This document shows, in pieces, positions 2,150 through 39,365 of a stretch of DNA of 64,000 nucleotides. The stretch is from positions 1 to 64,000 of the IMG/VR virus record IMGVR_UViG_3300034101_003081; one strand, 5' to 3'. Both the position numbers and the translations under genes were made by a program. Every line of letters starts with the position of its first letter. Position 1 is the first letter of the stretch. This DNA is from a virus. The notes below the pieces were generated by a model, which was not told where the DNA came from, made no database searches, and was given only the letters and a program-made list of their open reading frames with translations.

Positions 2150-2458
2150 CTATTCTAAAGTTGCGCGGGTGCCCGACCGTAAGACGGCCTGCTTGATTTC
2201 GATCTGCGAAATCGCCAGTTCCTTGAGCGTCTCGGCTTGCTGAGACTGCGTCTTGCCGATCTCTTTGAGAGTGTCCCGAGTCGATTCGAGAAACTCCGTG
2301 TGCGACGACACGATGGGGATGACAACCGTGCCGTGCAGGGTCGTGGCTGCTTCGCGGGCCATCCAGATGAACGCAGCCAAGATGACCACGGGGACGCCAA
2401 AGTCTCCGGCTACTTTGATCGCCGTGTCGACGATTGTTTGCTTGGTCGCATCGGTCAT
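2150..2458 (-). CDS. Small membrane protein, possible holin component
   Basis: A 102-residue protein with one hydrophobic segment (VPVVILAAFIWMA, residues ~20-32) and a charged coiled-coil-like C-terminus rich in Glu, Gln and Lys. The ATG at 2458 overlaps the upstream stop (ATGA). One membrane span plus a helical tail, next to a second small membrane protein and a protease, fits a holin or antiholin. It could instead be an unrelated inner-membrane protein. Confidence 0.6.
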   Translation of the reverse strand: MTDATKQTIVDTAIKVAGDFGVPVVILAAFIWMAREAATTLHGTVVIPIVSSHTEFLESTRDTLKEIGKTQSQQAETLKELAISQIEIKQAVLRSGTRATLE

Positions 2459-2817
2459 TTCGTCAACTCCCTTCTCCATCCGGCCATTTTCACGCGATTA
2501 GCCCGTGACTCGAACCACCACTCCAAGAGCCGCTTGAGCAGGTACTGGATCAGGGGGCTGATCAGAATCCAGAACAGCGGCCCGAACTGGGCCTCTTCGC
2601 CGTAGAGCAGGCCGTAGCCGCGTTTCACAGACTGCCCCCAGGCTGCAAGGGCCACTTCCTGCTCGTTCGAGCCCTGCGAGATATGCTGAAAAAACTCCAG
2701 CGGGCACTGCTCGATGGCGATCGTAATGACGTCATCAATCCGCTCGCGTCCGACGAGATTTCGCCGCAAGACGGGCAGTTCCTGCCACAGTTTGTCCCGC
2801 AACTCTTGCTGCGTCAT
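2455..2817 (-). CDS. Small membrane protein, possible holin partner
   Basis: A 120-residue protein whose start at 2817 overlaps the lipoprotein stop (ATGA). The N-terminal ~75 residues are soluble and helical; a membrane span follows at ~85-105 (FGPLFWILISPLIQYLL), then a Trp/Arg-rich basic tail, a common end for phage membrane proteins. It could form a two-component holin with the downstream gene. No family is recognised. Confidence 0.6.
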   Translation of the reverse strand: MTQQELRDKLWQELPVLRRNLVGRERIDDVITIAIEQCPLEFFQHISQGSNEQEVALAAWGQSVKRGYGLLYGEEAQFGPLFWILISPLIQYLLKRLLEWWFESRANRVKMAGWRRELTK

Positions 2818-3113
2818 GGAAGCGTCTTCGGCGGAATGAGAAACTGCCTGTTTGTCTTGCACGGGCACGAGTCATCGCACGGGCAGGACACCCACTCCAG
2901 GCCGTCTCCCGAGCGAACCAGGCCGCCTTTGCACTTGCCGCAGCATTTCTGAGGAGGCTGCGGGGCCAGAGAAGCGGCCGATTCAGCCCGAATTACCTCA
3001 TAGGCGGCGCACGAGAAGCATTCGCCGAGCAGTTCCACCTGATTCGGCGTCAGGCTTGGCTGGCATCCAGCCAGCGTCACCAAGGCGAGAAGCAGGAACT
3101 TCTTGCTGTTCAC
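2814..3113 (-). CDS. Cysteine-rich lipoprotein
   Basis: A 99-residue protein. The GTG start at 3113 overlaps the upstream TGA (GTGA). A short signal peptide ends in a lipobox (LVTLAGC), so it is probably lipid-anchored outside the inner membrane. The C-terminal half has eleven more Cys, including CCGKC and CPCDDSCPC, which look like metal-binding or disulfide clusters. Its place between a protease and two small membrane proteins recalls an outer-membrane spanin subunit, but spanins are not usually Cys-rich, so the role is uncertain. Confidence 0.7.
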   Translation of the reverse strand: MNSKKFLLLALVTLAGCQPSLTPNQVELLGECFSCAAYEVIRAESAASLAPQPPQKCCGKCKGGLVRSGDGLEWVSCPCDDSCPCKTNRQFLIPPKTLP

Positions 3114-4081
3114 AGGATGCCCCCGGTCCAAGAGGGAAGTTTCCTGGGAGGGAAACCGTCGTAGGACGAGAGAGCAAACGAGTCTTGCCAAGACTTGAGC
3201 ATCTTGTCCAAGACTTCGGCGTCCACCCAGAACGTCGAGCCCCGAAACTCCGCAGGCATGTCATCCGGACGGTCTGGAATCCCCGAATAGTGCGGTCCCG
3301 TGTGGGCTTTATTTCCCCACGAGTTCCAGATGAGGCCGCCAGGCCTCCTGCCGCCTCTTTTTCCGATTCCAGCCATGCAATGCAGCCACTCGCCCCTGGG
3401 AGTGGCGAAGCCGCGATTGACAATGTCGTCGTCGCTCTTTCCGTTTGAGCGGGACATCGTGAATCCCTGTCCCGAACAAATTGCAACCGAAAATCCGCTG
3501 GATATGGCTTTGCAGTAGGAGTCAAAGTCTGTGACGAGAGTCGTTGTCTTGATTCGCCTCTGCTTGGCGAACTTCTCCAGTTCGTCGGGCATGCCAGTGT
3601 CGCCCCACTGCTTCTCCCGAATGCCGGAGTAGTCTTTGAAGACCGCGCCTGCGTAGTCAACGCCGTAGTGCAGGACGCCCCACTGCATGACGGCCTTCGC
3701 CGCCCCGGCGCCATAAGAGCCGTCGGCAGTGCCCGCACGAGTCTTGCCTCTGGCCTCGACCCGGCTCACGCCGTAAATCGAGGCTTCGAGGATACGCCCT
3801 TTCCAGTCTTCGGCCTCGCCGTGGACGACGATTTCCGTCGCAGCAAGGGCGTCTCCGCAGCCTGCCCACCCATGGCCGACGCACGAGCCGATGGCCTGGG
3901 CGGTTCGCTTGTAGAGCGGGTCTACGCGAAGAATCGCCGGGTAGAGAACGACGTCTTGGTTGTCGTTGTTGGCGAGTTTTGGCCCGGCTTCAGCCAGCGT
4001 CGGATACTTGAGCGACGAGACGAACTTCTCGGTCGCTGCCCGGTCGGGCACGTACCCCTGGGGCCGCCACGGAGCAGGCAT
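3110..4081 (-). CDS. Papain-like (C1-type) cysteine protease
   Basis: A 323-residue protein with the order of catalytic motifs of papain-like enzymes: Gln62 and Cys67 in QAIGSCVGHGW, His234 in GEWLHCMAGIG and Asn253 in IWNSWG. There is no clear signal peptide. The ATG at 4081 shares one base with the upstream stop and follows AAAGGA. The neighbours are a lipoprotein and two small membrane proteins, suggesting an endolysin or an enzyme acting on a protein-rich host envelope. A virion-associated protease is the main alternative. Family assignment is firm; substrate is inferred. Confidence 0.8.
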   Translation of the reverse strand: MPAPWRPQGYVPDRAATEKFVSSLKYPTLAEAGPKLANNDNQDVVLYPAILRVDPLYKRTAQAIGSCVGHGWAGCGDALAATEIVVHGEAEDWKGRILEASIYGVSRVEARGKTRAGTADGSYGAGAAKAVMQWGVLHYGVDYAGAVFKDYSGIREKQWGDTGMPDELEKFAKQRRIKTTTLVTDFDSYCKAISSGFSVAICSGQGFTMSRSNGKSDDDIVNRGFATPRGEWLHCMAGIGKRGGRRPGGLIWNSWGNKAHTGPHYSGIPDRPDDMPAEFRGSTFWVDAEVLDKMLKSWQDSFALSSYDGFPPRKLPSWTGGIL

Positions 4082-4569
4082 CACTGATCCTTTCCAAGCC
4101 CAGCCCATGCAATGGCATCGAAGACCTCGACGGCCTTCGCTCGCAACTCAGGAGTCAGGGGACGCTGTTTGTCGCTGATAACCTCAGCAATCGCACCGTC
4201 AACGGCCTCGCTCAGGCCTTCGTACTCACCAGGCGGATTCCCGGCCATGCCTCGCCAGATGAACTTGAGGATCGCCACATGGATAGCCCGCAGGCCCTCT
4301 GTCGTGACGATGACCTGCGGTTCCACGACGCCATCTGCGGCCACGACTTTGGCCGCGTTGCTGTAGATCGTCTGGAGCCAGAGCCGATCAATCGGCGACA
4401 TCTTGCTCACGACGCGGATGACAGGCTTGACTGTGCTTTTCATGGCCTCGCTCGGCTCCTTGACGACCGTGGCGGGCTGCGTCCGGACGCTGAAACTCGG
4501 CAGCGACGGCACCCCAAACACGCCGTACGCGGCCAAGAGCAGGGCCACGATCACTTTCACCCGCTTCAC
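4081..4569 (-). CDS. Secreted or membrane-anchored protein
   Basis: A 162-residue protein from a GTG at 4569 that overlaps the upstream TGA (GTGA). An N-terminal hydrophobic stretch after KRVK (VIVALLLAAYGVFGV) acts as signal peptide or anchor. The rest is helical and contains a conserved-looking VVEPQVIVTTEGLRAIHVAIL segment. No family is recognised. It belongs to the translationally coupled series 5119-2150. Confidence 0.65.
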   Translation of the reverse strand: MKRVKVIVALLLAAYGVFGVPSLPSFSVRTQPATVVKEPSEAMKSTVKPVIRVVSKMSPIDRLWLQTIYSNAAKVVAADGVVEPQVIVTTEGLRAIHVAILKFIWRGMAGNPPGEYEGLSEAVDGAIAEVISDKQRPLTPELRAKAVEVFDAIAWAGLGKDQ

Positions 4570-4841
4570 GGCTTCTTCTCCGGCTTGAGCAGCACGTCGA
4601 TGAGGCTCTTGCACAGCCGCACTCCCTCGACGTTGCCTGATTTCTGGAGCCGACGGGCGATCTCCAGCACGACGTGGGCGTCGTCCGTCACCTCTGGCTC
4701 CGGCTTCGAGGCCTTGCTCGCGAACGAGACCGGCCGCCACGCCAGGAGTGCTTGACCTGCTGCCACCAGGGGCGCACCCGCCACAAGAGCAGCCGCCGCC
4801 ACGACGGCAGCGGCGCGAAGCATGAACTCGACATCGGGCAT
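4566..4841 (-). CDS. Small membrane protein
   Basis: A 91-residue protein, ATG at 4841 (TGATG overlap with the upstream gene). A long Ala/Val-rich hydrophobic stretch at residues ~8-35 spans the membrane once or as a hairpin; the C-terminal half (EVTDDAHVVLEIARRLQKSG) is a soluble helix. Function unknown; a lysis or envelope role is possible from context. Confidence 0.6.
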   Translation of the reverse strand: MPDVEFMLRAAAVVAAAALVAGAPLVAAGQALLAWRPVSFASKASKPEPEVTDDAHVVLEIARRLQKSGNVEGVRLCKSLIDVLLKPEKKP

Positions 4842-5119
4842 CACTTGTCTCCGTCAACTTTGGCGACGATCCACCGCAAGAAAGCCTCTCCCTGTGGAGA
4901 CTTGAGGATCGCCGTAACGTGATCGACGAGTTCGTCGTCGACCTTGGTGTTCTTGGATTTAGCCGCCAGCCACTCGCAGGCGTCCGCAACGATCAGGGAC
5001 TTGGCGTGCGGGTCATGCTCGGCCAAAAAAGCCTGCACGTAGGTCACAACCGGCGACCACTCTTGCAGGATGCGAATCTTTTCCCAGATCGAGACTGAGC
5101 CGTAGTTCGGTTCATTCAT
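4841..5119 (-). CDS. Small helical protein of unknown function
   Basis: A 92-residue acidic protein starting at ATG 5119, 10 bases after GGAGG. It begins MNEPNYGSVSIWEKIRILQ and is predicted all-helical with no membrane span. It is the first gene of a coupled series leading into the protease and lysis genes. No family recognised. Confidence 0.6.
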   Translation of the reverse strand: MNEPNYGSVSIWEKIRILQEWSPVVTYVQAFLAEHDPHAKSLIVADACEWLAAKSKNTKVDDELVDHVTAILKSPQGEAFLRWIVAKVDGDK

Positions 5120-5171
5120 GGCTTGAAAACCTCCGTGTGTCAGAGCCATGGTTCAGGCTACACGGAGATTC

Positions 5172-5594
5172 TCAGTCACCCGAAGTTCCGAGATCAGTAA
5201 GTTCTTCGAGACTCCAGCCTGGGCCGCCCTCTTCAGAAAGGTGGGCGTTGCTGGCCCATCCGAAAGCCGACTCTGGGATGACCCGAATCTCGACCGACTT
5301 CGGGGCGGGGGACCAGCCCACACGGCGTCTCGCCCGCTCTTCGTCGCTCCAGCCGGCCTGGAACTCCAGGCATTTTTGCCTTATTTCGGCCTCCGAGGGG
5401 AGGTAGGCTTTTCGGTGCCCCGTCTTGGAGCCGTGCCAACTCTGTCGCCGCGGCAGGCCCATTTTGCGACGAATCGCGTCGCACTTGTCGGCCGAGATTT
5501 TCAGAGTCTCAGCAATCACCCGAGTTGGCGTCCCTGCCAACCACATTTTCGAAAACGTAGCCGTGCAGACGGTTACTGTCGGTCCTCTTGGCAT
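5172..5594 (-). CDS. HTH DNA-binding protein (GcrA-like), copy 1
   Basis: A 140-residue protein. Residues ~10-50 form a helix-turn-helix of the sort IAETLKISADKCDAIRRKMGLP, as in GcrA-like and other small phage regulators. The second half has EIRQKCLEFQAGWSDEERARRRVGW, also found as ERAKVIRDSWSDAECERRWMG in the gene at 10562-10900. It overlaps the end of the glycosyltransferase upstream by 22 bp. A regulator or a recruited methylation-sensing factor is possible. Confidence 0.65.
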   Translation of the reverse strand: MPRGPTVTVCTATFSKMWLAGTPTRVIAETLKISADKCDAIRRKMGLPRRQSWHGSKTGHRKAYLPSEAEIRQKCLEFQAGWSDEERARRRVGWSPAPKSVEIRVIPESAFGWASNAHLSEEGGPGWSLEELTDLGTSGD

Positions 5595-6181
5595 GCAGCC
5601 GTCTTTGCTTTCTCCCCCACCAGCCAGGCGACACGCAGTTCTGGGGTCTCGATCCCGCAGGCGTGCCTAAACTGCGGAACAACCTCCTTGCTCGTCCCTC
5701 TCCAAGAGTTCCATTCCTCCCCTAGCCTGTGGACGGTCTGCTCGCTGGCGAGCCTGTTGATTGCCGCCTGCTCCCACCAGTCGTCGTGTATGCAGTCGTC
5801 TTGCATCGCAGCCATGACGATCGTCTCCAGAAAGTCCCTGCGGGCCAGGAAAATGCCGCAGTTGTAGTGCCCCCTCCCTCGCTCGTCCGTCAGCCAGCAC
5901 GCGGCGGCCTGAAACCCAGGCCGGAAGTCATTGAATATGTTTCGCGTCGCTCGCGACACGTCGACGTCGACGTCGATCCAGAGAACTTCGTCGTGCTTCG
6001 CAAGAGCCCCGGCGACGGCCGCCAACTTCCCCCATGACGGCGGTCTTTTTCCTGACGAGAGTTCAACGCCGTGAAACTCGACCCCGATCGTCCTGGCGTA
6101 CTGCACCATGGCAGGCCACGTTATGTCAGCGAGGTTCTTGTATGTGCTGCCTGAAAAGCCAGAGACGATAGCCCGAGTCAT
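5573..6181 (-). CDS. Glycosyltransferase with DxD motif (GT8/GT34-like)
   Basis: A 202-residue GT-A type transferase. The nucleotide-sugar and metal motif is WIDVDVDV near residue 70, followed by HYNCGIFLARRDFLETI and a conserved WWEQAAINRL segment typical of galactosyl or mannosyl transferases of the GT34 type. The ATG at 6181 overlaps the previous stop (ATGA). It is the last enzyme of the glycan cassette. Donor sugar and acceptor cannot be read from sequence. Confidence 0.75.
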   Translation of the reverse strand: MTRAIVSGFSGSTYKNLADITWPAMVQYARTIGVEFHGVELSSGKRPPSWGKLAAVAGALAKHDEVLWIDVDVDVSRATRNIFNDFRPGFQAAACWLTDERGRGHYNCGIFLARRDFLETIVMAAMQDDCIHDDWWEQAAINRLASEQTVHRLGEEWNSWRGTSKEVVPQFRHACGIETPELRVAWLVGEKAKTAACQEDRQ

Positions 6182-7050
6182 TCGCCTTCCTCTGGAACCC
6201 AGAACGAAACTACCCGCTGCGACGGATTGAGATAGCAGTCCCCGCCCATGGACTTCCAGTGGGCGACATGCTCGCAGTCTCCGCCGGCGTAGGTGCCTGA
6301 GATGTAGTCTCCCATGCGGTACACGCCCAGTTGCCCGAAGCACGAGTTCATCCGCACGGGTGGTGACCCGACGGGTGGGTGCCAGAGGTGGAACCAGAGC
6401 ATGTTCTGTCGCTCTTGCCACCACGTCCACCGGCAAGCCCAGGCGTCGTATTGGCACTCGGTCGGCTGCGGCCACACAGGAGGGCCCCATACCGCCCACG
6501 AGTACGACCCCATCCCCGATGCGTTGCTGTATTCGTCGTCTTCGAGGTGCCCGATCGTGTTGGCGATGCCGTCGATGCTCCAGCCGCCCCAGGCGTCCGT
6601 ATCAAACACGATGGCGTAGTCGTAGCCCCGGCAGTTCGCTTCGCACCAAAGTCGGCAGTTGTTGCGATACTCGGCCAGGGCGATCGTCCGGTCAGACGAC
6701 TTGGTGTAGTTCAGGTGCGGTCGGCCGTTGTCTGTCATCGCCACACTGAGCCGCGAGTCAGCGACCTTGGCTGCCGACAGCACGTCTTTAGTTCCGTCTT
6801 CGCTGTCGTTCTCGAAGACAAAGGCTCTCCAGTCAGCGAATAACTCGCCCGTACGCGATACCAACTCCAGCGTCAGCGGCAGAAACGGCATCGCGTTGCG
6901 GCAGATGGCAACGAAAGCGGCCCTTCTCTTTTTGGCGATCAGGCGTCCACGCTCGACGCGGCCCCAGTAGGCGTCGACGAACTCCGGGTCTGGCGGAAGA
7001 ATCAAGTCAGGGGCGTGTCGGTTAATCTCTGCAAACGTAAGCGACGGCAT
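6178..7050 (-). CDS. CMT1-like mannosyltransferase family protein
   Basis: A 290-residue protein. VFENDSEDGTKDVL near residue 80 and YDYAIVFDTDAWGGWS near 147 match the acidic motifs of the GT69/CMT1-type alpha-mannosyltransferases known mainly from fungi and some bacteria. Trp and Cys are frequent in the C-terminal half. It lies in a coupled cassette with four other transferase-like genes. Donor and acceptor are unknown. Confidence 0.7.
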   Translation of the reverse strand: MPSLTFAEINRHAPDLILPPDPEFVDAYWGRVERGRLIAKKRRAAFVAICRNAMPFLPLTLELVSRTGELFADWRAFVFENDSEDGTKDVLSAAKVADSRLSVAMTDNGRPHLNYTKSSDRTIALAEYRNNCRLWCEANCRGYDYAIVFDTDAWGGWSIDGIANTIGHLEDDEYSNASGMGSYSWAVWGPPVWPQPTECQYDAWACRWTWWQERQNMLWFHLWHPPVGSPPVRMNSCFGQLGVYRMGDYISGTYAGGDCEHVAHWKSMGGDCYLNPSQRVVSFWVPEEGE

Positions 7051-10999: not shown

Positions 11000-11413
11000 T
11001 CACGGAGCGAACTGCTGCACCCAGTACGCTCGACCGTCTGGACCGATGAACCCAGCCACGCCGATGCGGCGATAGCCACGGTTCAGGATGTTGGCGCGAT
11101 GCCCAGGAGACGCCAGCCACACTTCGACGGCTTCGGCTGCCGTCGGCTGGCCAGTGGCGACGTTCTCAGCAACGCGATCTGCGCTGTGCCGCAGCGACAT
11201 TTCGCGAGCCATCCTGCGGGCGTGCCGCCTCGCCGACGACATGAGTCCGCAGTCGACGACGAGAACAGGAGCGCCGTTGCTTGCGCGTGCTTCGTTTGTC
11301 TTGGACACGACCTGGGCTTCACCTGGCGTGAGGACGCTGCACGTCCCGTCGTTTGCGACAGCCGTCGCAGCGAACATGGTCAAGAGCAGAAAGATCGCGG
11401 TGCGTGTATCCAT
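11000..11413 (-). CDS. Secreted CAP-domain (SCP/PR1, YkwD-like) protein
   Basis: A 137-residue protein with a signal peptide (TAIFLLLTMFAATAVA) and one CAP domain. The conserved His and Glu are seen in MSLRHSADRVAENVA, and WLASPGHRANILN and YWVQQFAP close the domain. CAP proteins are exported; their role in phages is not settled (adhesion, sterol or envelope binding). Start ATG 11413 follows GAGG. Confidence 0.85.
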   Translation of the reverse strand: MDTRTAIFLLLTMFAATAVANDGTCSVLTPGEAQVVSKTNEARASNGAPVLVVDCGLMSSARRHARRMAREMSLRHSADRVAENVATGQPTAAEAVEVWLASPGHRANILNRGYRRIGVAGFIGPDGRAYWVQQFAP

Positions 11414-11427
11414 ACAACTACCTCGCG

Positions 11428-11835
11428 TTAGGAGTTCTCGAACCAGTCGTCGCCGTGACGCTCGAAGAGACGAACATCCCGACAGCCGACGCTGCGTGCA
11501 ATCGTGACGCAGTACGGTGCAAACACGGCCAGCGGCAGTTGCGGATTGATCGAGCCGTCTGCGACCAGCATCGCAGCGGCCAGGCGAGCGATGCCGCGAC
11601 GCCGATGTGATTCGAGCGTGAACCCTTCGAGGGTCTGCCACGATCGCCACTCGTGCGTTGCTGCCCACGCTACGATCCTCCATGACCCGTCCCGCACAAT
11701 CGCGATCGGTGTCGTCGACCCGAGTCGACTCTGAACCTCTCGCTGGAACTGGCTTCCGTGCTTCGTCAGGCTCGCGACTATCGCCCTTGCGTCGAGGTCA
11801 GAGAGCCTTCCGACGGCCGTGGTTATCGCTTCCAT
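11428..11835 (-). CDS. GNAT-like acetyltransferase
   Basis: A 135-residue protein. FTLESHRRRGIARLAAAMLV looks like the acetyl-CoA binding motif (RxxGxA) with the following helix, preceded by two strands (PIAIVRDGSWRIVAWAA). Start at ATG 11835 after AGAGAGA. Phage GNATs are often small and modify host proteins or toxins; the target here is unknown. Confidence 0.6.
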   Translation of the reverse strand: MEAITTAVGRLSDLDARAIVASLTKHGSQFQREVQSRLGSTTPIAIVRDGSWRIVAWAATHEWRSWQTLEGFTLESHRRRGIARLAAAMLVADGSINPQLPLAVFAPYCVTIARSVGCRDVRLFERHGDDWFENS

Positions 11836-11858
11836 ACTTCTCTCTGTCAATGGCTTTT

Positions 11859-12134
11859 TCAGTTCGTCGTGATCACAAAAATCGGCAGGTCTCGGCCAAC
11901 CAACTCAGGCACCGTGTGTTCGCTGAGGTAGTCCACTGCTTGCTCGTGCGAGAGCCCCTTGTTCGCCATGACGATCTCGACGCATGCCTCGTAGTCGTAG
12001 ACTGCGACTGGCCTGACTCCAGACGAATGGCCGATGTAGGCTTCCGAAAGACCCTTGGCAACGAGGGCTTTTGGGTTGACCGCCAGCAACTCTTGATACA
12101 CTTCACGCTCTTCCGGCCTTCTGGCGGCGATCAT
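11859..12134 (-). CDS. Conserved phage protein, paralogue of 13903-14391
   Basis: A 91-residue protein. NPKALVAKGLSEAYIGHSS, AVYDYEACVEIVMANKGLS and a final VGRDLPIFV are matched position by position in the C-terminal half of the gene at 13903-14391. Such a domain is frequent in GC-rich phages; its function is unknown. It has its own AAGGAAGG site. Confidence 0.65.
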   Translation of the reverse strand: MIAARRPEEREVYQELLAVNPKALVAKGLSEAYIGHSSGVRPVAVYDYEACVEIVMANKGLSHEQAVDYLSEHTVPELVGRDLPIFVITTN

Positions 12135-12261
12135 GCTGCCTTCCTTTTGGTCTAATGACTTTCCGCCAGACTCCGTCGACGAGAACCAACTCGTAGACCG
12201 GCTTCCGAGACGGCTTTTCTGGCTCTGGCGGCCAGTTTTTTCTCGAAGTTATGCTTCCCAT
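12103..12261 (-). CDS. Very small protein (52 aa), tentative
   Basis: ATG at 12261 lies within the last codons of the VRR-NUC gene, and the frame stays open for 52 residues (GSITSRKNWPPEPEKP, YELVLVDGVWRKVIRP). It fills a gap that otherwise has no gene and overlaps the next gene by 32 bp. It is basic. Coding status rests on fit and composition only. Confidence 0.4.
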   Translation of the reverse strand: MGSITSRKNWPPEPEKPSRKPVYELVLVDGVWRKVIRPKGRQHDRRQKAGRA

Positions 12262-12539
12262 ACTGAGTCGAGAACCTTCTGGGCTTCTTCTTTACTCGTG
12301 ACGACCTCGGCAACGGCGCCGGCTTGTTCACGAATCTCTTGCATGACGTGCTGCTGGAGCGGCGTCGGCTTCTTGCCGGGCTGTTTGACCTCAAGAAACA
12401 CGGCCCGGCCAGCCTTGACGCAGAGCAAGTCTGGGATGCCGGCTCGCTGAAACGCGCCACCGGCGATCTTGAACGTCCACCAGCCATGAGACTTGGCAGA
12501 CTTGACGATAGACTTGGTGATCGCAGTCTCAAGGGGCAT
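12249..12539 (-). CDS. VRR-NUC domain nuclease
   Basis: A 96-residue minimal VRR-NUC protein: GIPDLLCVKAGRAVFLEVK is the PD...ExK core, with TPLQQHVMQEI after it. Such single-domain proteins are seen in phages as Holliday-junction or structure-specific nucleases. Start ATG 12539 after GGGAGG; the C-terminus ends at SVWEA. Confidence 0.85.
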   Translation of the reverse strand: MPLETAITKSIVKSAKSHGWWTFKIAGGAFQRAGIPDLLCVKAGRAVFLEVKQPGKKPTPLQQHVMQEIREQAGAVAEVVTSKEEAQKVLDSVWEA

Positions 12540-32014: not shown

Positions 32015-32704
32015 CTATAGAGAAACAACCTCGATCCCGTCCCGGTTCTCCCAGACACGTCGCACGTTGTCCGAGTAGCCGGGCTGCAACTGCTCGATCA
32101 TCGGCAGATACTGCTCGTTGGGCATGCCGCTGCCGACGTCGAAGTCATGGCGGTCGCCAAAAATCCACGCGATGATCGAACGGTACTTGTTGCCGCAGAT
32201 GCGGTAGTTGATCAGCGAGATCGACGGGTCCATGCAAGCCCAGGCCAAGTCTATCTGTTTGCCCAAGTCTATGGTCGCGTATCGCGTGATCGACTCGACG
32301 GGCACGCCGCCACAGTGCGCGACGTTGCCGAGATGCTCGATGCTCGCCTGAGCCAGGTCTCCGTAGTACAGGATCGTGTCGCGGACCTTGGGATGTACCT
32401 CGTCGAGCGGGCGGCCCTCGGTCTTCGCGATCGCCTGGGCGACGAAGTCCTCGTCTGGAAACAGCCGCGTCTCGGCAAGCAGCCGCGAGTTGACCTCGAC
32501 GACGAGCGCCTTCTCGCCCTTATTGTCGTCGGCCGCGTGCCAGGCAAAGTACGGCGCGTACGCTGTGGTCAGGTACACGAAGTCCGGATGACTCGGGTAC
32601 GAGTCCCAGTTCCCCTTGCGTCGCTTGCCTCGCGGCTTGAGGCCCTGAGACAAGATGCGGTCGAGGTACTTGTCCGTCGTGCCGTGGTAGAGCAGTGCGT
32701 TCAT
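32015..32704 (-). CDS. Putative ADP-ribosyltransferase-like protein
   Basis: A 229-residue protein. LYHGTTDKYLDRILSQGLKP and FVYLTTAYAPYFAWHAA match the H...Y pattern of ART-like folds (KptA/PARP/phage Alt type), followed by a strand with LVVEVN. A third conserved acidic residue is not certain. It may modify a host protein or RNA. ATG 32704 after GGAGGG. Confidence 0.55.
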   Translation of the reverse strand: MNALLYHGTTDKYLDRILSQGLKPRGKRRKGNWDSYPSHPDFVYLTTAYAPYFAWHAADDNKGEKALVVEVNSRLLAETRLFPDEDFVAQAIAKTEGRPLDEVHPKVRDTILYYGDLAQASIEHLGNVAHCGGVPVESITRYATIDLGKQIDLAWACMDPSISLINYRICGNKYRSIIAWIFGDRHDFDVGSGMPNEQYLPMIEQLQPGYSDNVRRVWENRDGIEVVSL

Positions 32705-33481: not shown

Positions 33482-34303
33482 TTAGCAAGACTCAAGACTC
33501 GGGAGGGAGACCCCGCACTGCTCGCAGAGTTTGGCGACCTCGGCGGCAAGTTCTGCCCTGGTGTGCGATCCAGCGCGGCGTGCCTCGCTCGTCGTGACGC
33601 AGCCCTCGTCGACCTCCAGGGCCGCCGGGTAGCAGTGACTTGGCAGGAACCCGAACCGCTCTTGGTGCGACCAGCACAGCCGACGCAGGCTCGCGTTGTG
33701 GCACAGGGCAAACGCGAGACGGTCGACGTCGACCGGCTGGTTCGCTGCCTTGACCAGCACCTCGACTTGGTGCTGGGCACGGCCGCCAGACGTCCGCGAC
33801 GTGGCCTTCGCGGCCCATAGTTCGACTCGCAGTCCCAGGCTTTCCAGAACGTCGACGGCGGCCAGGACAACGGCACCGCGAGCGAAGATCGCCTCGGCCG
33901 TCACGCCCGCACTGACGCCCAGGTTGGCGTACAGCCGGACGACCCGCTGCGACCCGAACCGGCCGGTCTCGTACTCGTTGTAAGAGCCGCAGGATTCCGG
34001 CTCGCCCGACAAGACGCGGCCGACGTCCACGAAGTCGCCGACGGCGTCCCAGGCGAACTGCTGGCAGGCGGCGACCTTCGAGGCCTCCACGTACTGATCG
34101 AGACTAGCCCGAATCTCGGCGACGCGAGCCGCACCCTCGTGCCAGCCAGCGTGCGCCAACTCGACGGCCTGCTCGAACGTGCGAGTGCCGAAGTGGCCTT
34201 CGCGGCCGACGTCGCGGCTGCTGATGCCCTTGACCTGCGGCACCTGGCGGACGTCCTCGACGAAGGCCTCGTACGAGTCAAAAGCGTGGCGGATGTGGCT
34301 CAT
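33482..34303 (-). CDS. CobT/vWA-like paralogue A (degenerate metal site)
   Basis: A 273-residue protein, first of three tandem relatives. Conserved blocks are a TFEQAVELAHAGWHEGAARV helix near 45, GDFVDVGRVLSGEPESCG near 90 and a vWA-like core RVVRLYANLGVSAG then AVVLAAVDVLESLGLRVELW near 120-160. In ordinary vWA domains the first strand ends in DxSxS; here it is NLGVS, so the metal site looks lost. The end is Cys-rich. It has its own promoter at 34329-34383. I infer a partner or adaptor of the AAA+ ATPase at 36159-37424. Confidence 0.65.
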   Translation of the reverse strand: MSHIRHAFDSYEAFVEDVRQVPQVKGISSRDVGREGHFGTRTFEQAVELAHAGWHEGAARVAEIRASLDQYVEASKVAACQQFAWDAVGDFVDVGRVLSGEPESCGSYNEYETGRFGSQRVVRLYANLGVSAGVTAEAIFARGAVVLAAVDVLESLGLRVELWAAKATSRTSGGRAQHQVEVLVKAANQPVDVDRLAFALCHNASLRRLCWSHQERFGFLPSHCYPAALEVDEGCVTTSEARRAGSHTRAELAAEVAKLCEQCGVSLPSLESC

Positions 34304-34328
34304 GTTCGATGTCTCCTGGGGATGTCGG

Positions 34329-34383
34329 ATTATTGCCGACGTCCTGAATGAAGTCAAGCGGCCGGTTTGGCTCTATGACACAA
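34329..34383 (-). promoter_or_regulatory. Sigma70-type promoter with upstream TTGTGTCATAG box
   Basis: -35 TTGACT at 34357-34352, 17-base spacer, -10 AATAAT at 34334-34329; box at 34383-34373 overlaps the stop codon of paralogue B. It serves paralogue A. Confidence 0.75.
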
Positions 34384-35212
34384 CAATGGATTCCCGCTCT
34401 TCGGCCGAGAAAGACACGCCGCACGACTCGCAGACTTGCAAGACTCGGGCCGCCCTGGCCGCCGCCGTTGTGTCACTCTGTCTAACCTCGGGCGTCGCGA
34501 TCGCGCCCTCCTCGACGAGCAGCGGGCACGTCCCCGTGCAGTTGGGGCTGAATCCCAAGTCTTCCTCGACGCTGAAGAACAGCCGACGCAGGCTGGCGTT
34601 GTGGGCCAAAAAGAACGCGATCCGGTCAGGCTCGAACGGCTGGCTGGCATCTTTGGCCTTGACCAGCACGGTCAACTTGTCGCCTCTGATGCGACTGTGC
34701 GAGCCAGAGCCGAGCCACAACTCGACACGGTGGCCGAGCGTCTCCAGCACGTCGACAGCCGCAAACACGGCGGCTCCAGCACTGAAAATGCTCTCCTTCT
34801 TGACGCCGGCAATCGCGGACAGGTTCGCAACTAACTTGATCACTCTCGTCGACGGCTGCGAGTCTTGCCCCTCGCGGAACGATCCGCAGCACTCAGGCTC
34901 GCCAGACAATACGCGGCCAATGTCGATGAAGTCGCCTGTAGTGTCCCACTCCAGTTTGCACGACTTGGCCGCGACAGCCTTGTCGACGACGCTCTCCAAC
35001 TCGGCGCGGAGTTTGGTCAGCCGCTCGGCGCCTGCGGGCCAGCCCTTCGTGGCGAGTTCGACAGCCTCGCCGAACGTCGCCGTGCCATGAAACCCAGCCT
35101 CGACGCCGCAGTGCGAGACCTTGGAGTTCTCGCCCTTGGTGTCGGCGGCGGCAATGAAGTCGCCGATGGTCTCGAACGTCACGACCCGATGATCATCGTT
35201 CTTCTTCTTCAC
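34373..35212 (-). CDS. CobT/vWA-like paralogue B (degenerate metal site)
   Basis: A 279-residue relative of the flanking genes: ATFGEAVELATKGWPAGAER, GDFIDIGRVLSGEPECCGS, RVIKLVANLSAIAG and AAVFAAVDVLETLGHRVELW. It also has HNASLRRLFF, shared with paralogue A. The DxSxS metal site is replaced by NLSAI. GTG start at 35212 after AAGGAG. Same inferred role as paralogue A. Confidence 0.65.
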   Translation of the reverse strand: MKKKNDDHRVVTFETIGDFIAAADTKGENSKVSHCGVEAGFHGTATFGEAVELATKGWPAGAERLTKLRAELESVVDKAVAAKSCKLEWDTTGDFIDIGRVLSGEPECCGSFREGQDSQPSTRVIKLVANLSAIAGVKKESIFSAGAAVFAAVDVLETLGHRVELWLGSGSHSRIRGDKLTVLVKAKDASQPFEPDRIAFFLAHNASLRRLFFSVEEDLGFSPNCTGTCPLLVEEGAIATPEVRQSDTTAAARAARVLQVCESCGVSFSAEERESIVVS

Positions 35213-35238
35213 GGTCTAGTCTCCTTGTCTTGGATTGC

Positions 35239-36069
35239 TCAGGCCTTGACCAGTTCTGCGATCTGCTCTTCGTCGAACGTGAGGCCGCACTTCTCGGCGA
35301 TCTTGATCACGTTCTCTTTCAGGCTCTTCGCCGACAGGTTGACCGCCGACAGAATCTCGTCGATCTCGACCGTGCCCTGACGCTTGCCGTAATCGGCGAC
35401 CGACGCTGGGTGGCAGTTCGACGGGCAGTGCCCGTACAACTCCATCCAGCGAAAACCGAACCGCCGGAAGAACGACGGGTGTGCGACGGTGAACGCGAGG
35501 CGGTCAGGGTCGACGATCTCGCCAGGCCGCTTGGCGACGACGTTCGCCGTGAGGTGAAGGCCGTGACCGCTCGTCGCCGTCGAGCAGATGACTTCGCAGC
35601 GAATGCCGCACGACTCAAGCAAGTCGACCGCCACCAGCACGGCCACGCCGCGGGCCGCGATCGCGTCGGCGCTGACGGCCCCGCTCACGCACTGATTGAG
35701 CCGTATCGACACGACCTTGGACGACACCGTCTCGCCGTTCTCAAACTCCTGGCCGCAGCACTCAGGCTCGCCCGACAGGACACGGCCAACGTCGATGAAG
35801 TCGCCAGTGACGTCCCAGCCGAACGTCCGAGACTTGGCAGTCTTGGCGGCGGAAATAAACGCCGAGAGTCCATCGCGGTGCTTGTTCACGCGGGCGACGC
35901 CGTCTGCCCAGCCCCTCGCGAACAACTCGCCAGCCTCGGCGTAGGTGTCCGTCCAGAAAAACTCCTTCCGGCCTGTGGCCTGGCTGTTCTGGCTCACGCC
36001 CTTGTCGTCGCGGGCGAGGTCTGCCAGGTAGTCGCTCACGGTCTCGTAGTCTTTGACGATCGTCTTCAC
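35239..36069 (-). CDS. CobT/vWA-like paralogue C (degenerate metal site)
   Basis: A 276-residue third relative, the most diverged: TYAEAGELFARGWADGVARV, GDFIDVGRVLSGEPECCGQ, KVVSIRLNQCVSG and VAVLVAVDLLESCGIRCEV. Tandem duplication and divergence explain the series A-B-C. Start GTG 36069 after AGGAGAA. It is the copy next to the AAA+ gene. Confidence 0.65.
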   Translation of the reverse strand: MKTIVKDYETVSDYLADLARDDKGVSQNSQATGRKEFFWTDTYAEAGELFARGWADGVARVNKHRDGLSAFISAAKTAKSRTFGWDVTGDFIDVGRVLSGEPECCGQEFENGETVSSKVVSIRLNQCVSGAVSADAIAARGVAVLVAVDLLESCGIRCEVICSTATSGHGLHLTANVVAKRPGEIVDPDRLAFTVAHPSFFRRFGFRWMELYGHCPSNCHPASVADYGKRQGTVEIDEILSAVNLSAKSLKENVIKIAEKCGLTFDEEQIAELVKA

Positions 36070-36158: not shown

Positions 36159-37424
36159 CTAGAGGTTCGCCTCGATCTTGCTGCGGGTGTCCTTGTCGAG
36201 CCCCTTCCAGACGCAGGCGTCGAGAGTGGCATCGACGGGCCAGCCAGCCCGAAGCAGGGCGACGCCGTTGATGTTCGCACGCGGCGAGACGATCACCCGC
36301 ACGCCCTTGCCGAGCGAGGCAATGGCATTACGGACGGCGACGACCTTCTTCACGTACTCGGCGACCCGCTCCTCGGCGACGGCCTTCTCGACGTCGGTCT
36401 TCACCGAATGCACCTTGATCCCCTTGGCCTGCGGGGCCTCGGCGAACAACTCCAGGGACAGGCCGCAGGCCGCCGCCTCGATCCGGGGATCGTACTGCCA
36501 GTCGACCAGCACGAACCGATCGAGCGTCGCCGCGTCGATCTGCTGCCGTCCCACGTACTGCCGATCGGCACCCTGCCCGATCGTGTTGGCACCGGCGATC
36601 AGCACGAAGTCGGCATGCTTCGCGACGACGGCGTCGGGGAACGAGGCGTGCCCGTTGGCGAGCAACTGATTGATCACGACCAGCACGGCCGGATTGGCCG
36701 CGTCGACCTCGTCGAGCAGGAACACGCCACCATGCTCGTAGGCGTCGCGGAGTTGCGTCCGCACCACCTTGCCGTTGGCGTCGTGGTAGCCGAGCAGGCT
36801 CGACTCGGACGTCTGCGGGCCGACCGACTTGGCGTAGAACGGCAGGCCGAGCGAGTCCGCGACGGCATGCGCCGACGACGTCTTGCCAGAGCCGGCAGGC
36901 CCGACGAGCCAGCAATTCCTGCGGGCAGCAACGGCGGCGAGCAAGGCCTCAAACTGGACGTGCTGGACGCCCACGTCGTTGGCGACGCCCTCGACGGTCA
37001 CGACCTCGATCCGCTGCGGCACCAGGGCCGCGATCCGCTGATCGACGATCGCCGTGACCTCGTCGATATCGACGCCGCCCTTGCCGCCCTCGGAGGTCAC
37101 GAGCCCGGTGTCGCGGACGGCCTCGGCGATGATCTCGGCGAGGGAACGATTGCCGCGACCGCCGTCGATCTCCGAGTCAGACTCGACCTCGCCGTTACCG
37201 TGTCCAGACTTCTCGGCACCGCTCGCCCACAGGCTCAGGCCCCGGCTCGTCTTGACGACCTGCTCGCCGTTGGGTCCGACGAGATGGAAGAGACGGGACT
37301 GGCGACCCTTCTCGGTCTCGCGGGTCTCGACCCGCTCGATCGTGAACTCCCTGCCGTCCGCGACGGTGATGACGGCGCCGACCTTGTACGACTGCCACGA
37401 GTTGTTGATGACGTTGTTGTTCAC
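36159..37424 (-). CDS. CobS/MoxR-type AAA+ ATPase
   Basis: A 421-residue protein. The first ~155 residues hold a small beta-rich domain (GAVITVADGREFTIERVE) and a linker. The AAA+ module has Walker A GPAGSGKT (175-182), Walker B FLLDEVDA (~235-242) and the CobS-like sensor GANTIGQGADRQYVGRQQ. MoxR-family ATPases act with vWA proteins as remodelling chaperones; CobS pairs with CobT. The vWA-like neighbours on both sides fit. GTG start at 37424 (AAGGAG); own promoter at 37495-37548. Confidence 0.85.
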   Translation of the reverse strand: MNNNVINNSWQSYKVGAVITVADGREFTIERVETRETEKGRQSRLFHLVGPNGEQVVKTSRGLSLWASGAEKSGHGNGEVESDSEIDGGRGNRSLAEIIAEAVRDTGLVTSEGGKGGVDIDEVTAIVDQRIAALVPQRIEVVTVEGVANDVGVQHVQFEALLAAVAARRNCWLVGPAGSGKTSSAHAVADSLGLPFYAKSVGPQTSESSLLGYHDANGKVVRTQLRDAYEHGGVFLLDEVDAANPAVLVVINQLLANGHASFPDAVVAKHADFVLIAGANTIGQGADRQYVGRQQIDAATLDRFVLVDWQYDPRIEAAACGLSLELFAEAPQAKGIKVHSVKTDVEKAVAEERVAEYVKKVVAVRNAIASLGKGVRVIVSPRANINGVALLRAGWPVDATLDACVWKGLDKDTRSKIEANL

Positions 37425-37868: not shown

Positions 37869-39182
37869 TTAGGCCTGTGCAAGAGCCTCGCACTCGACGA
37901 TGTAGCGAATCACGTTTTCAGCGAAGCCGTCAACGTGAGTCCAACCGTCGTGATAGCCGACGCCATGCTGATACGGCGCGACGTTGATCATGTACGCCGC
38001 ATCTGCCTTCGGGCGCACAACACGGTCATGCGATTGTTCGTCCGTGACCACGATCAGGCGATCGTGGTCGAACTTCTCGACAGCCCGAATCGCTTCGCCG
38101 AGCAGCGTCCCGCCTCGCGGCTGCGAGAGTTGCACGGCCTCGACGCCAGACAGGCCACGACGAGGAGGCACCTCGACCACTCTGTCGGAGAATGAAAAGA
38201 CACGAAGGTCGTCGCAGTTGAGTATTGCCGCGAGCGACGCCGCTGCGTCAAGTCTCGTCAAGTCTGCGCGGCTCGACAGAGGCACGTCCATCGAGCCCGA
38301 GACGTCGACCAGCACGATCGTCTTGCCTGAGAGCCTCGGCAGTTCGTGGATCGACGCGAGCATCGCGATGTCGAGCGTCGGCTCCAGCGACGGCGCGGCC
38401 TTGGCCGCAGCGACGAAACGAAACGGAAGCACTCGCTCGGCGCCGAGCCTGCCCAAGATCGCGTTCTTGATCAGCGACGTCTCGACGCCAGCCTCGACCA
38501 TGTTCCGTAGGTTGCGGAGCAGGGCGAGGTAGCCGATCTTCTGCTCGCGGATCAGTCGCTCGAACGTGGACTTCTTGTCAGCGCCGCCTGAGAGCGAGAC
38601 TTCCCACGTATCGGGAGCAACGAGCGTTCCCTCGACGAGCGATCGCCACAGGCTTGCCTGCTCAGGTGTGTCGGGCTTGGCATGGCACAGAAATAAGACG
38701 TCGCGAAGTTTGATAGCCGACGGCTTGTTGTACTTGGCAAGTTGGTAGGCGTTGAACTTCTTGAACGCCGCCGCGAGGCCTTTCTTCATCGGGTTCGAGA
38801 GCGGCTTCTTGCCGTCGGCCCAGTAGATGGCGACGAGTTCTGCGAGTTCGTCCGCTCGCTGGATCGTGTCGACGATCGCCTGCGAGACGAGTTTGCCGGA
38901 GCCGTGCTTGATCAGCCCCTTGAGCAGGAGCAGCGGAACGTGCCGCAAATGAAACTTTGAGCGAGCCTCGACGGCGAGAGATGCGATCTCGTCGGGCGTG
39001 ACCTTCTCGCACAACGAGAGAATGCGATCCGCAACATCGACGCCATCCTCGTAGTGCGTCGACTCCCACAGCAGGCACGTCAGGACGGTGCGTCGCAGTT
39101 CCTGGCTGGGCGTGATCCGCACAGCCGGAGCGCCCTCGTGCGTGACTGCGGCATTCGAGGCGGGAGCGGTGTTGAGTCGCAC
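37869..39182 (-). CDS. rsr: Ro60-like TROVE/vWA RNA-binding protein
   Basis: A 437-residue protein. Residues ~20-285 match the TROVE ring of Ro60 (RTVLTCLLWESTHYEDGVD, VEARSKFHLRHVPLLLLKGL, LAAAFKKFNAYQLAKYNKP). The C-terminal vWA domain has an intact metal site, VDVSGSMDVP near 292-301, with later VFSFSDRVVEVP and LIVVTDEQSHD. Ro60 proteins bind Y RNAs and damaged RNAs; bacteria and a few phages have them. GTG start at 39182 (CAGGAG). Long 188-base leader with tandem repeats. The symbol follows the Deinococcus orthologue. Confidence 0.9.
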   Translation of the reverse strand: MRLNTAPASNAAVTHEGAPAVRITPSQELRRTVLTCLLWESTHYEDGVDVADRILSLCEKVTPDEIASLAVEARSKFHLRHVPLLLLKGLIKHGSGKLVSQAIVDTIQRADELAELVAIYWADGKKPLSNPMKKGLAAAFKKFNAYQLAKYNKPSAIKLRDVLFLCHAKPDTPEQASLWRSLVEGTLVAPDTWEVSLSGGADKKSTFERLIREQKIGYLALLRNLRNMVEAGVETSLIKNAILGRLGAERVLPFRFVAAAKAAPSLEPTLDIAMLASIHELPRLSGKTIVLVDVSGSMDVPLSSRADLTRLDAAASLAAILNCDDLRVFSFSDRVVEVPPRRGLSGVEAVQLSQPRGGTLLGEAIRAVEKFDHDRLIVVTDEQSHDRVVRPKADAAYMINVAPYQHGVGYHDGWTHVDGFAENVIRYIVECEALAQA

Positions 39183-39201
39183 GGCTGGGCTCCTGGCTGA
39201 T

Positions 39202-39365
39202 GAGGAAGAGAAATGCTGGCGAGAACAGCGAGGCCGGGGGATCAAACAGCCTTAGTGTGAAGTAACCGGACTCTGCACTACGCCAGCAAGGCGACAAGAG
39301 CCGCGAGAACAAACGGACACGGCGTGGTTTCTATCGCAAAGAAGTAGCCGTGGCCTGCACTACGC
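39202..39365 (-). ncRNA. Tandem ~82-nt repeat leader; candidate Y RNA-like element
   Basis: Two imperfect units, 39365-39284 and 39283-39202. Each starts GCGTAGTGCAG, then five variable bases, GG(C/T)TACTTC, and has TGTTCTCGC ~55 bases from the start. GTAG pairs with CTAC in unit 1 and with TTAC (a G-U pair) in unit 2, a small sign of RNA structure. It lies between a promoter and a Ro60-like gene. Y RNA is inferred from context; no tRNA-like fold was recognised. Confidence 0.45.

Follow-up and report, generated by a model that had tools for sequence, protein, structure and literature searches.

Three diverged DUF7192 proteins as probable vWA-like partners of one MoxR/CobS-type ATPase in a phage genome

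Our results point to a MoxR/CobS-type remodelling ATPase that is probably served by three diverged, vWA-like partners of the family DUF7192, all of which have lost the canonical metal site. We put the probability of this reading at roughly 70%. The evidence that bears on it directly consists of the linkage between the genes, the predicted vWA fold, profile similarity to CobT and NorD, the absence of DxSxS, and an old triplication. The genes are located on the minus strand of the window, by which we mean the whole 64,000-nucleotide stretch that was analyzed; it belongs to a virus record of 97,385 bases that contains capsid, portal, terminase, and helicase genes. If the reading holds, a phage family that is present in hundreds of genomes, and that has been without a function until now, gains a testable MoxR/vWA role. 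Furthermore, natural partners without a MIDAS, the metal site of vWA domains, would separate ring docking from metal-dependent substrate grip, two properties that NorD and CobT combine.

Three DUF7192 genes behind one ATPase gene

In the order of transcription, the ATPase gene (37424-36159) is followed by copy 3 (36069-35239; 276 aa), copy 2 (35212-34373; 279 aa), and copy 1 (34303-33482; 273 aa), with an AGGAG-type ribosome site preceding the start of each of the three copies. The first-pass annotation had described these minus-strand open reading frames as tandem paralogues, and they do share 35-50% pairwise identity over 230-275 residues. Long open reading frames on the plus strand lie opposite the copies, and orthologue comparisons indicate that these are antisense to genes whose minus frame is under purifying selection. 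All three copies are members of Pfam DUF7192 (PF23822), or phrog_1909 (E values of 1e-33 to 1e-38), with DUF7192 scores of 132.7, 120.4, and 115.2 bits against a curated cut-off of 27 bits. The family has no described function, and DUF7192 was not named in any paper in the literature that we searched.

The upstream gene (36159-37424, minus strand) encodes a CobS-like AAA+ ATPase of the phrog_249 type, the only one of its kind in the entire 97 kb record. It has the features of a MoxR-type AAA+ protein, namely, a Walker A motif (GPAGSGKT), a Walker B motif (FLLDEVD), and a helix-2 insert (LLGYHDANGKVVRT). We set its start at the GTG at 37424, which is preceded by AGGAG, in a reading frame that is open to 37481. 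Its best NCBIfam match was the CobS model TIGR01650 (E = 3.7e-10), at 39.5 bits, which falls short of the equivalog cut-off of 558.55 bits.

Linkage between the two kinds of genes extends across the family. A single-sequence tblastn search recovered relatives in 334 phage records, and a profile search found 51 IMG/VR loci with DUF7192. Phages that bear the family include those of Staphylococcus (Kayvirus), Mycobacterium, Gordonia, and Rhizobium, as well as an acidobacterial phage and others. A phrog_249-type ATPase gene was found upstream on the same strand in all 57 of the 57 DUF7192 loci, usually directly adjoining (median gap, 47 bp), which is the adjacency to a MoxR/CobS-like AAA+ gene that characterizes NorD- and CobT-type partners. 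The pair also occurs on contigs of Spirosoma, Runella, Trebonia, and a Planctomycetaceae metagenome-assembled genome (MAG), and a search with PF11775 in four DUF7192-bearing bacterial genomes returned no CobT. Likewise, phage CobT profiles detected no CobT proper in the 97 kb record. A CobT-like protein with an intact MIDAS (phrog_1576) adjoins the phrog_249 ATPase in phages SSU5 and nickie. The main text of papers on transcription in Kayvirus and Listeria phages gives no timing for these genes.

The family may be broader than its current annotation. In Listeria and crAss-like phages, the open reading frame that follows the ATPase is annotated otherwise yet matches the family profile (E values of 1e-11 to 1e-16). 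The Listeria phrog_7005 proteins and the crAss-like "transcriptional regulator" (L067, L068, and L069) appear to be divergent DUF7192 relatives, and the families could be merged. At another locus (L029), a second phrog_249-like ATPase gene (11277-12416, plus strand) lies about 4.5 kb past the ATPase-DUF7192 pair.

Upstream of the ATPase, the window encodes a Ro60/TROVE-like protein (37869-39245, minus strand) whose vWA metal site (DVSGSMD) appears to be intact. This gene is retained in loci L004 and L005 and is found near the module in the Planctomycetaceae contig (L072), where a Ro-like gene, the ATPase, and two DUF7192 genes occupy 2230-3159 (minus strand) and 4405-6720 (plus strand). We considered the Ro60-like neighbor as a part of the module and rejected it; the gene looks lineage-specific because the window, L004, L005, and L072 are the only loci where it accompanies DUF7192. 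Searches for Y RNA or other known RNA near the module gave no Rfam match at the gathering level. The Planctomycetaceae contig is the nearest relative among the bacterial contigs and may be a clue to which group the host of the window's phage belongs to. Elsewhere in the window, a 229-aa protein that starts with MNALLYHGT (32015-32704, minus strand) has only weak matches, to KptA and PARP (both with E of about 0.07) and to phrog_11974, and is possibly ADP-ribosyltransferase-like. A further phage gene (8467-9381, minus strand) matches "reversibly glycosylated polypeptide" (PF03214, E = 1e-28).

Predicted fold and the missing metal site

A vWA-like pattern had been suggested for the three copies from their sequences, and structure prediction agrees with it. 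AlphaFold2 models of copy 1 (50-row alignment) and copy 3 (52-row alignment), which draw on largely one common alignment, reached pLDDT values of 88.8 and 89.3. The modelled topology runs beta-1, helix, beta-2, beta-3, and helices, that is, a vWA-type Rossmann fold. For both models, the top five Foldseek matches in the PDB were NorD vWA domains in NorQ-NorD complexes, with E values of 3.4e-3 to 0.19 for copy 1 and 1.9e-4 to 4.8e-3 for copy 3, for which the next unrelated match stood at 0.17. VIA-align gave Z scores of 8.2 and 9.1 for NorD and of 7.7 and 8.0 for the MIDAS domain of Rea1. Among predicted viral proteins, the next structural matches after DUF7192 itself were phage CobT-like proteins. 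A search of the DUF7192 profile against PDB sequences yielded nothing significant, and comparison with Thermus phage vWA proteins (two sequences) produced no profile match. Because the Foldseek TM-scores are low (0.27-0.29) and Z scores of 8-9 are modest, near the level at which common arrangements occur, our assignment of the copies to a degenerate vWA fold rests on several lines that agree, and it is a prediction.

The metal site itself is degenerate. At the end of strand beta-1 in the model, copy 3 reads NQCVS (35683-35697, minus strand); copy 1 has NLGVS (33911-33925, minus strand), as judged by its model and by comparison of family motifs, and copy 2 has NLSAI (34811-34825, minus strand) from the family comparison. 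The first-pass annotation had quoted these strings correctly, but its proposal that each copy lost DxSxS separately must be rejected, as the motif is missing family-wide (0 of 68 members). Position 1 of the motif is N in 44 of the 68, and only the later positions vary. Since DxSxS is found in none of the members and N predominates at position 1, the first Asp of the metal site was most likely lost in the ancestor of the family. The later MIDAS loops (pattern [TSN]x0-2DG after beta-3) are also absent in 66 of 68 members, including all three copies in the window. The claim of a vWA fold stands despite the missing MIDAS, because many vWA domains lack DxSxS.

The shared block and the age of the triplication

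The motif GDF(V/I)D(V/I)GRVLSGEPE(S/C)CG, which had been singled out as a mark of the three copies, is present in each of them, but it turns out to be a signature of the whole family: a relaxed G...D..R...GEPE block occurs in 65 of 67 sequences. In the window, the block spans GDFIDVGRVLSGEPECCG in copy 3 (residues 89-106; 35752-35805), GDFIDIGRVLSGEPECCG in copy 2 (residues 93-110; 34883-34936), and GDFVDVGRVLSGEPESCG in copy 1 (residues 89-106; 33986-34039), all on the minus strand. The best 21-residue segment among the copies has an identity of 0.83, a value reached by 0 of 2000 shuffles. Because its codons differ synonymously among the copies, the block is conserved at the level of the protein. 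In both models, a short helix (residues 94-98) lies inside the block, between two strands and directly before beta-1, although in copy 1 this region has a pLDDT of about 60 and its shape is uncertain.

A comparison with CobT had been recommended, and it revealed kinship at the level of profiles. Against a profile built from collected phage CobT sequences plus NorD, DUF7192 aligned with an hhalign E value of 1.7e-6 over 203 columns (score, 34.7), at an identity to CobT of about 11%. No score above 9.9 was obtained with thirty column-shuffled targets, and the E values for two unrelated profiles were 0.06 and 0.08. In this alignment, the DUF7192 segment GxxVDVGRxLxGEPECM sits on GRLxxxxLxRxxxGDDRIF of CobT, just before beta-1; the degenerate motif sits on DxSGS, and K-x-x-x-Q-P sits on K-x-x-x-E-P. 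At the position of the block, Paracoccus NorD reads DGEELDLDAALR, which resembles GDFVDVGRVL. In the NorQD complex, the vWA domain of NorD extends a finger into the pore of the AAA+ hexamer; the finger helix and the loop that follows contact the helix-2 inserts, and the finger is essential for remodelling (PMC13036017). Judged by sequence and models, the block shared by the DUF7192 copies looks like a pore-inserting finger of the NorD type. Alternatively, because it is conserved in the whole family, the block may serve other roles, such as folding, catalysis, or contact with nucleic acid.

A finger-like motif could also be turned against the host. DUF7192 might plug or poison MoxR-type rings of the host, the phage ATPase would then serve as its own regulator, and the absence of a MIDAS would leave an inactive plug. 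Yet a cognate phage ATPase is always encoded alongside, and in the defense-system library PADLOC the three copies had no match and the ATPase only weak AAA-type matches to IetA. We regard this explanation as very improbable.

The triplication is old, and its copies are under purifying selection. A maximum-likelihood tree places each copy with its orthologous counterpart from L004 or L005, where the three copies occur in the same order. For copies 2 and 3, it also shows orthologues in a more distantly related phage (L018), whose third copy is truncated at the contig end and whose gene order differs. Values of dN/dS between the window and L004/L005 were 0.17-0.24 for each copy, similar to those of the ATPase (0.19-0.23). 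We rejected recent duplication or gene conversion, given that the orthologues of a given copy cluster together across phages and that synonymous codon differences separate the copies within the shared block; the earlier description of the copies as diverged is thus borne out. Identity among the copies falls from 0.83 in the proposed finger tip to 0.28-0.45 in segments outside the finger, and of 31 positions fixed differently between copies, none is in the finger (the copy-1 group consists of two sequences). Separate duplications have occurred in mycobacteriophages (two dispersed copies) and in Spirosoma and Trebonia (two in tandem).

Taken together, these observations suggest how such a machine might work. 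The ATPase would be expected to form a hexameric ring, and each DUF7192 partner would insert its finger, with the GxxxDxGRxLxGEPE block as its tip, into the pore of that ring, as NorD does in NorQ. The diverged outer surface of the partner would be presented to a substrate protein, which ATP hydrolysis would then twist or remodel. Because the MIDAS is missing throughout the family, contact with the substrate would have to be independent of it. In NorD, the MIDAS is needed for function and not for ring binding, as MIDAS mutants still bind NorQ but fail to activate the target (PMC9976466). If the same division of labor holds, DUF7192 would still dock to the ring but would no longer grip its substrate through a metal. 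We further infer that all copies use one ring: because the tip is near-identical while the rest differs, the three copies probably share one ATPase and most likely differ in substrate or in position.

The copies could be alternative adaptors or parts of a mixed complex, and either would be compatible with copies that diverge outside a constant docking block. One possibility is an obligate hetero-oligomer (e.g., one or two of each copy per ring) in which all three are needed simultaneously. L004 and L005 preserve all three genes in an unchanged order, purifying selection acts on each of them, and all lie behind the sole ATPase gene of its type in 97 kb; in addition, the cobaltochelatase CobST is described as forming multi-subunit rings of both proteins. 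However, most members of the family stand alone next to one ATPase, so that one kind is generally enough; copy order differs in L018, and NorQ6:NorD1 has one partner only (PMC9976466). An obligate hetero-oligomer therefore seems unlikely. We favor action one at a time over joint action, and it is quite possible, if short of probable, that the copies deliver different substrates, each its own, to a common ATPase. The constant finger tip amid diverged parts and the repeated, independent duplication beside one ATPase (mycobacteriophages, Spirosoma, and Trebonia) speak for such adaptors, although simple subfunctionalization would give the same picture. Our fuller proposal, put forward tentatively, is a modular chaperone of one AAA+ ring and three long-diverged, metal-site-less vWA adaptors with a near-identical finger, which phages would have expanded several times independently.

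Comparison with known systems

Viral cobST has been proposed to boost cobalamin supply (PMC8651126), and the module could in principle be a true cobaltochelatase helper, in which phage CobS/CobT work with host CobN. The ATPase is CobS-like, phrog_249 ATPases pair with CobT elsewhere, and DUF7192 resembles CobT in its vWA part, where the profile alignment spans the finger and the vWA region, the K..EP segment included. Nevertheless, the CobS match lies far below its cut-off, and the copies lack both the DxSxS metal site and the N-terminal region of CobT. CobT carries the motifs DxSGS, NxDG, and DG, and its length is roughly double that of DUF7192 (about 570-860 aa versus 273-279 aa). A role in cobalt chelation is thus improbable. 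Because the copies have neither an intact MIDAS nor the length of CobT, we consider the module to be like NorQD and CobST in outline and do not file DUF7192 as CobT.

The module also bears a close likeness to NorQ/NorD, which activates nitric oxide reductase. There too, an AAA+ gene adjoins that of a vWA partner, and a finger like the one proposed for DUF7192 precedes the metal-site strand; NorD also provides the best structural matches. Unlike NorD, DUF7192 has no large N-terminal domain and no MIDAS, is phage-borne, and occurs here in three copies. The second-best structural match, the MIDAS domain of Rea1/Midasin, is likewise of the vWA type and works together with an AAA+ ring, but it is fused to the ring protein, is eukaryotic, and binds UBL domains. 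Finally, jumbo phages and the Acidianus two-tailed virus encode MoxR-vWA chaperone pairs that have been proposed to function in virion assembly (PMC7824862). These resemble our module in joining a virus-borne ATPase to a vWA partner, whereas their partners are described as vWA proteins, one kind being fused to a peptidase, and that report states no link to DUF7192. MoxR AAA+/vWA pairs are thus already known, and three MIDAS-less phage partners behind one ATPase would represent a variant of them.
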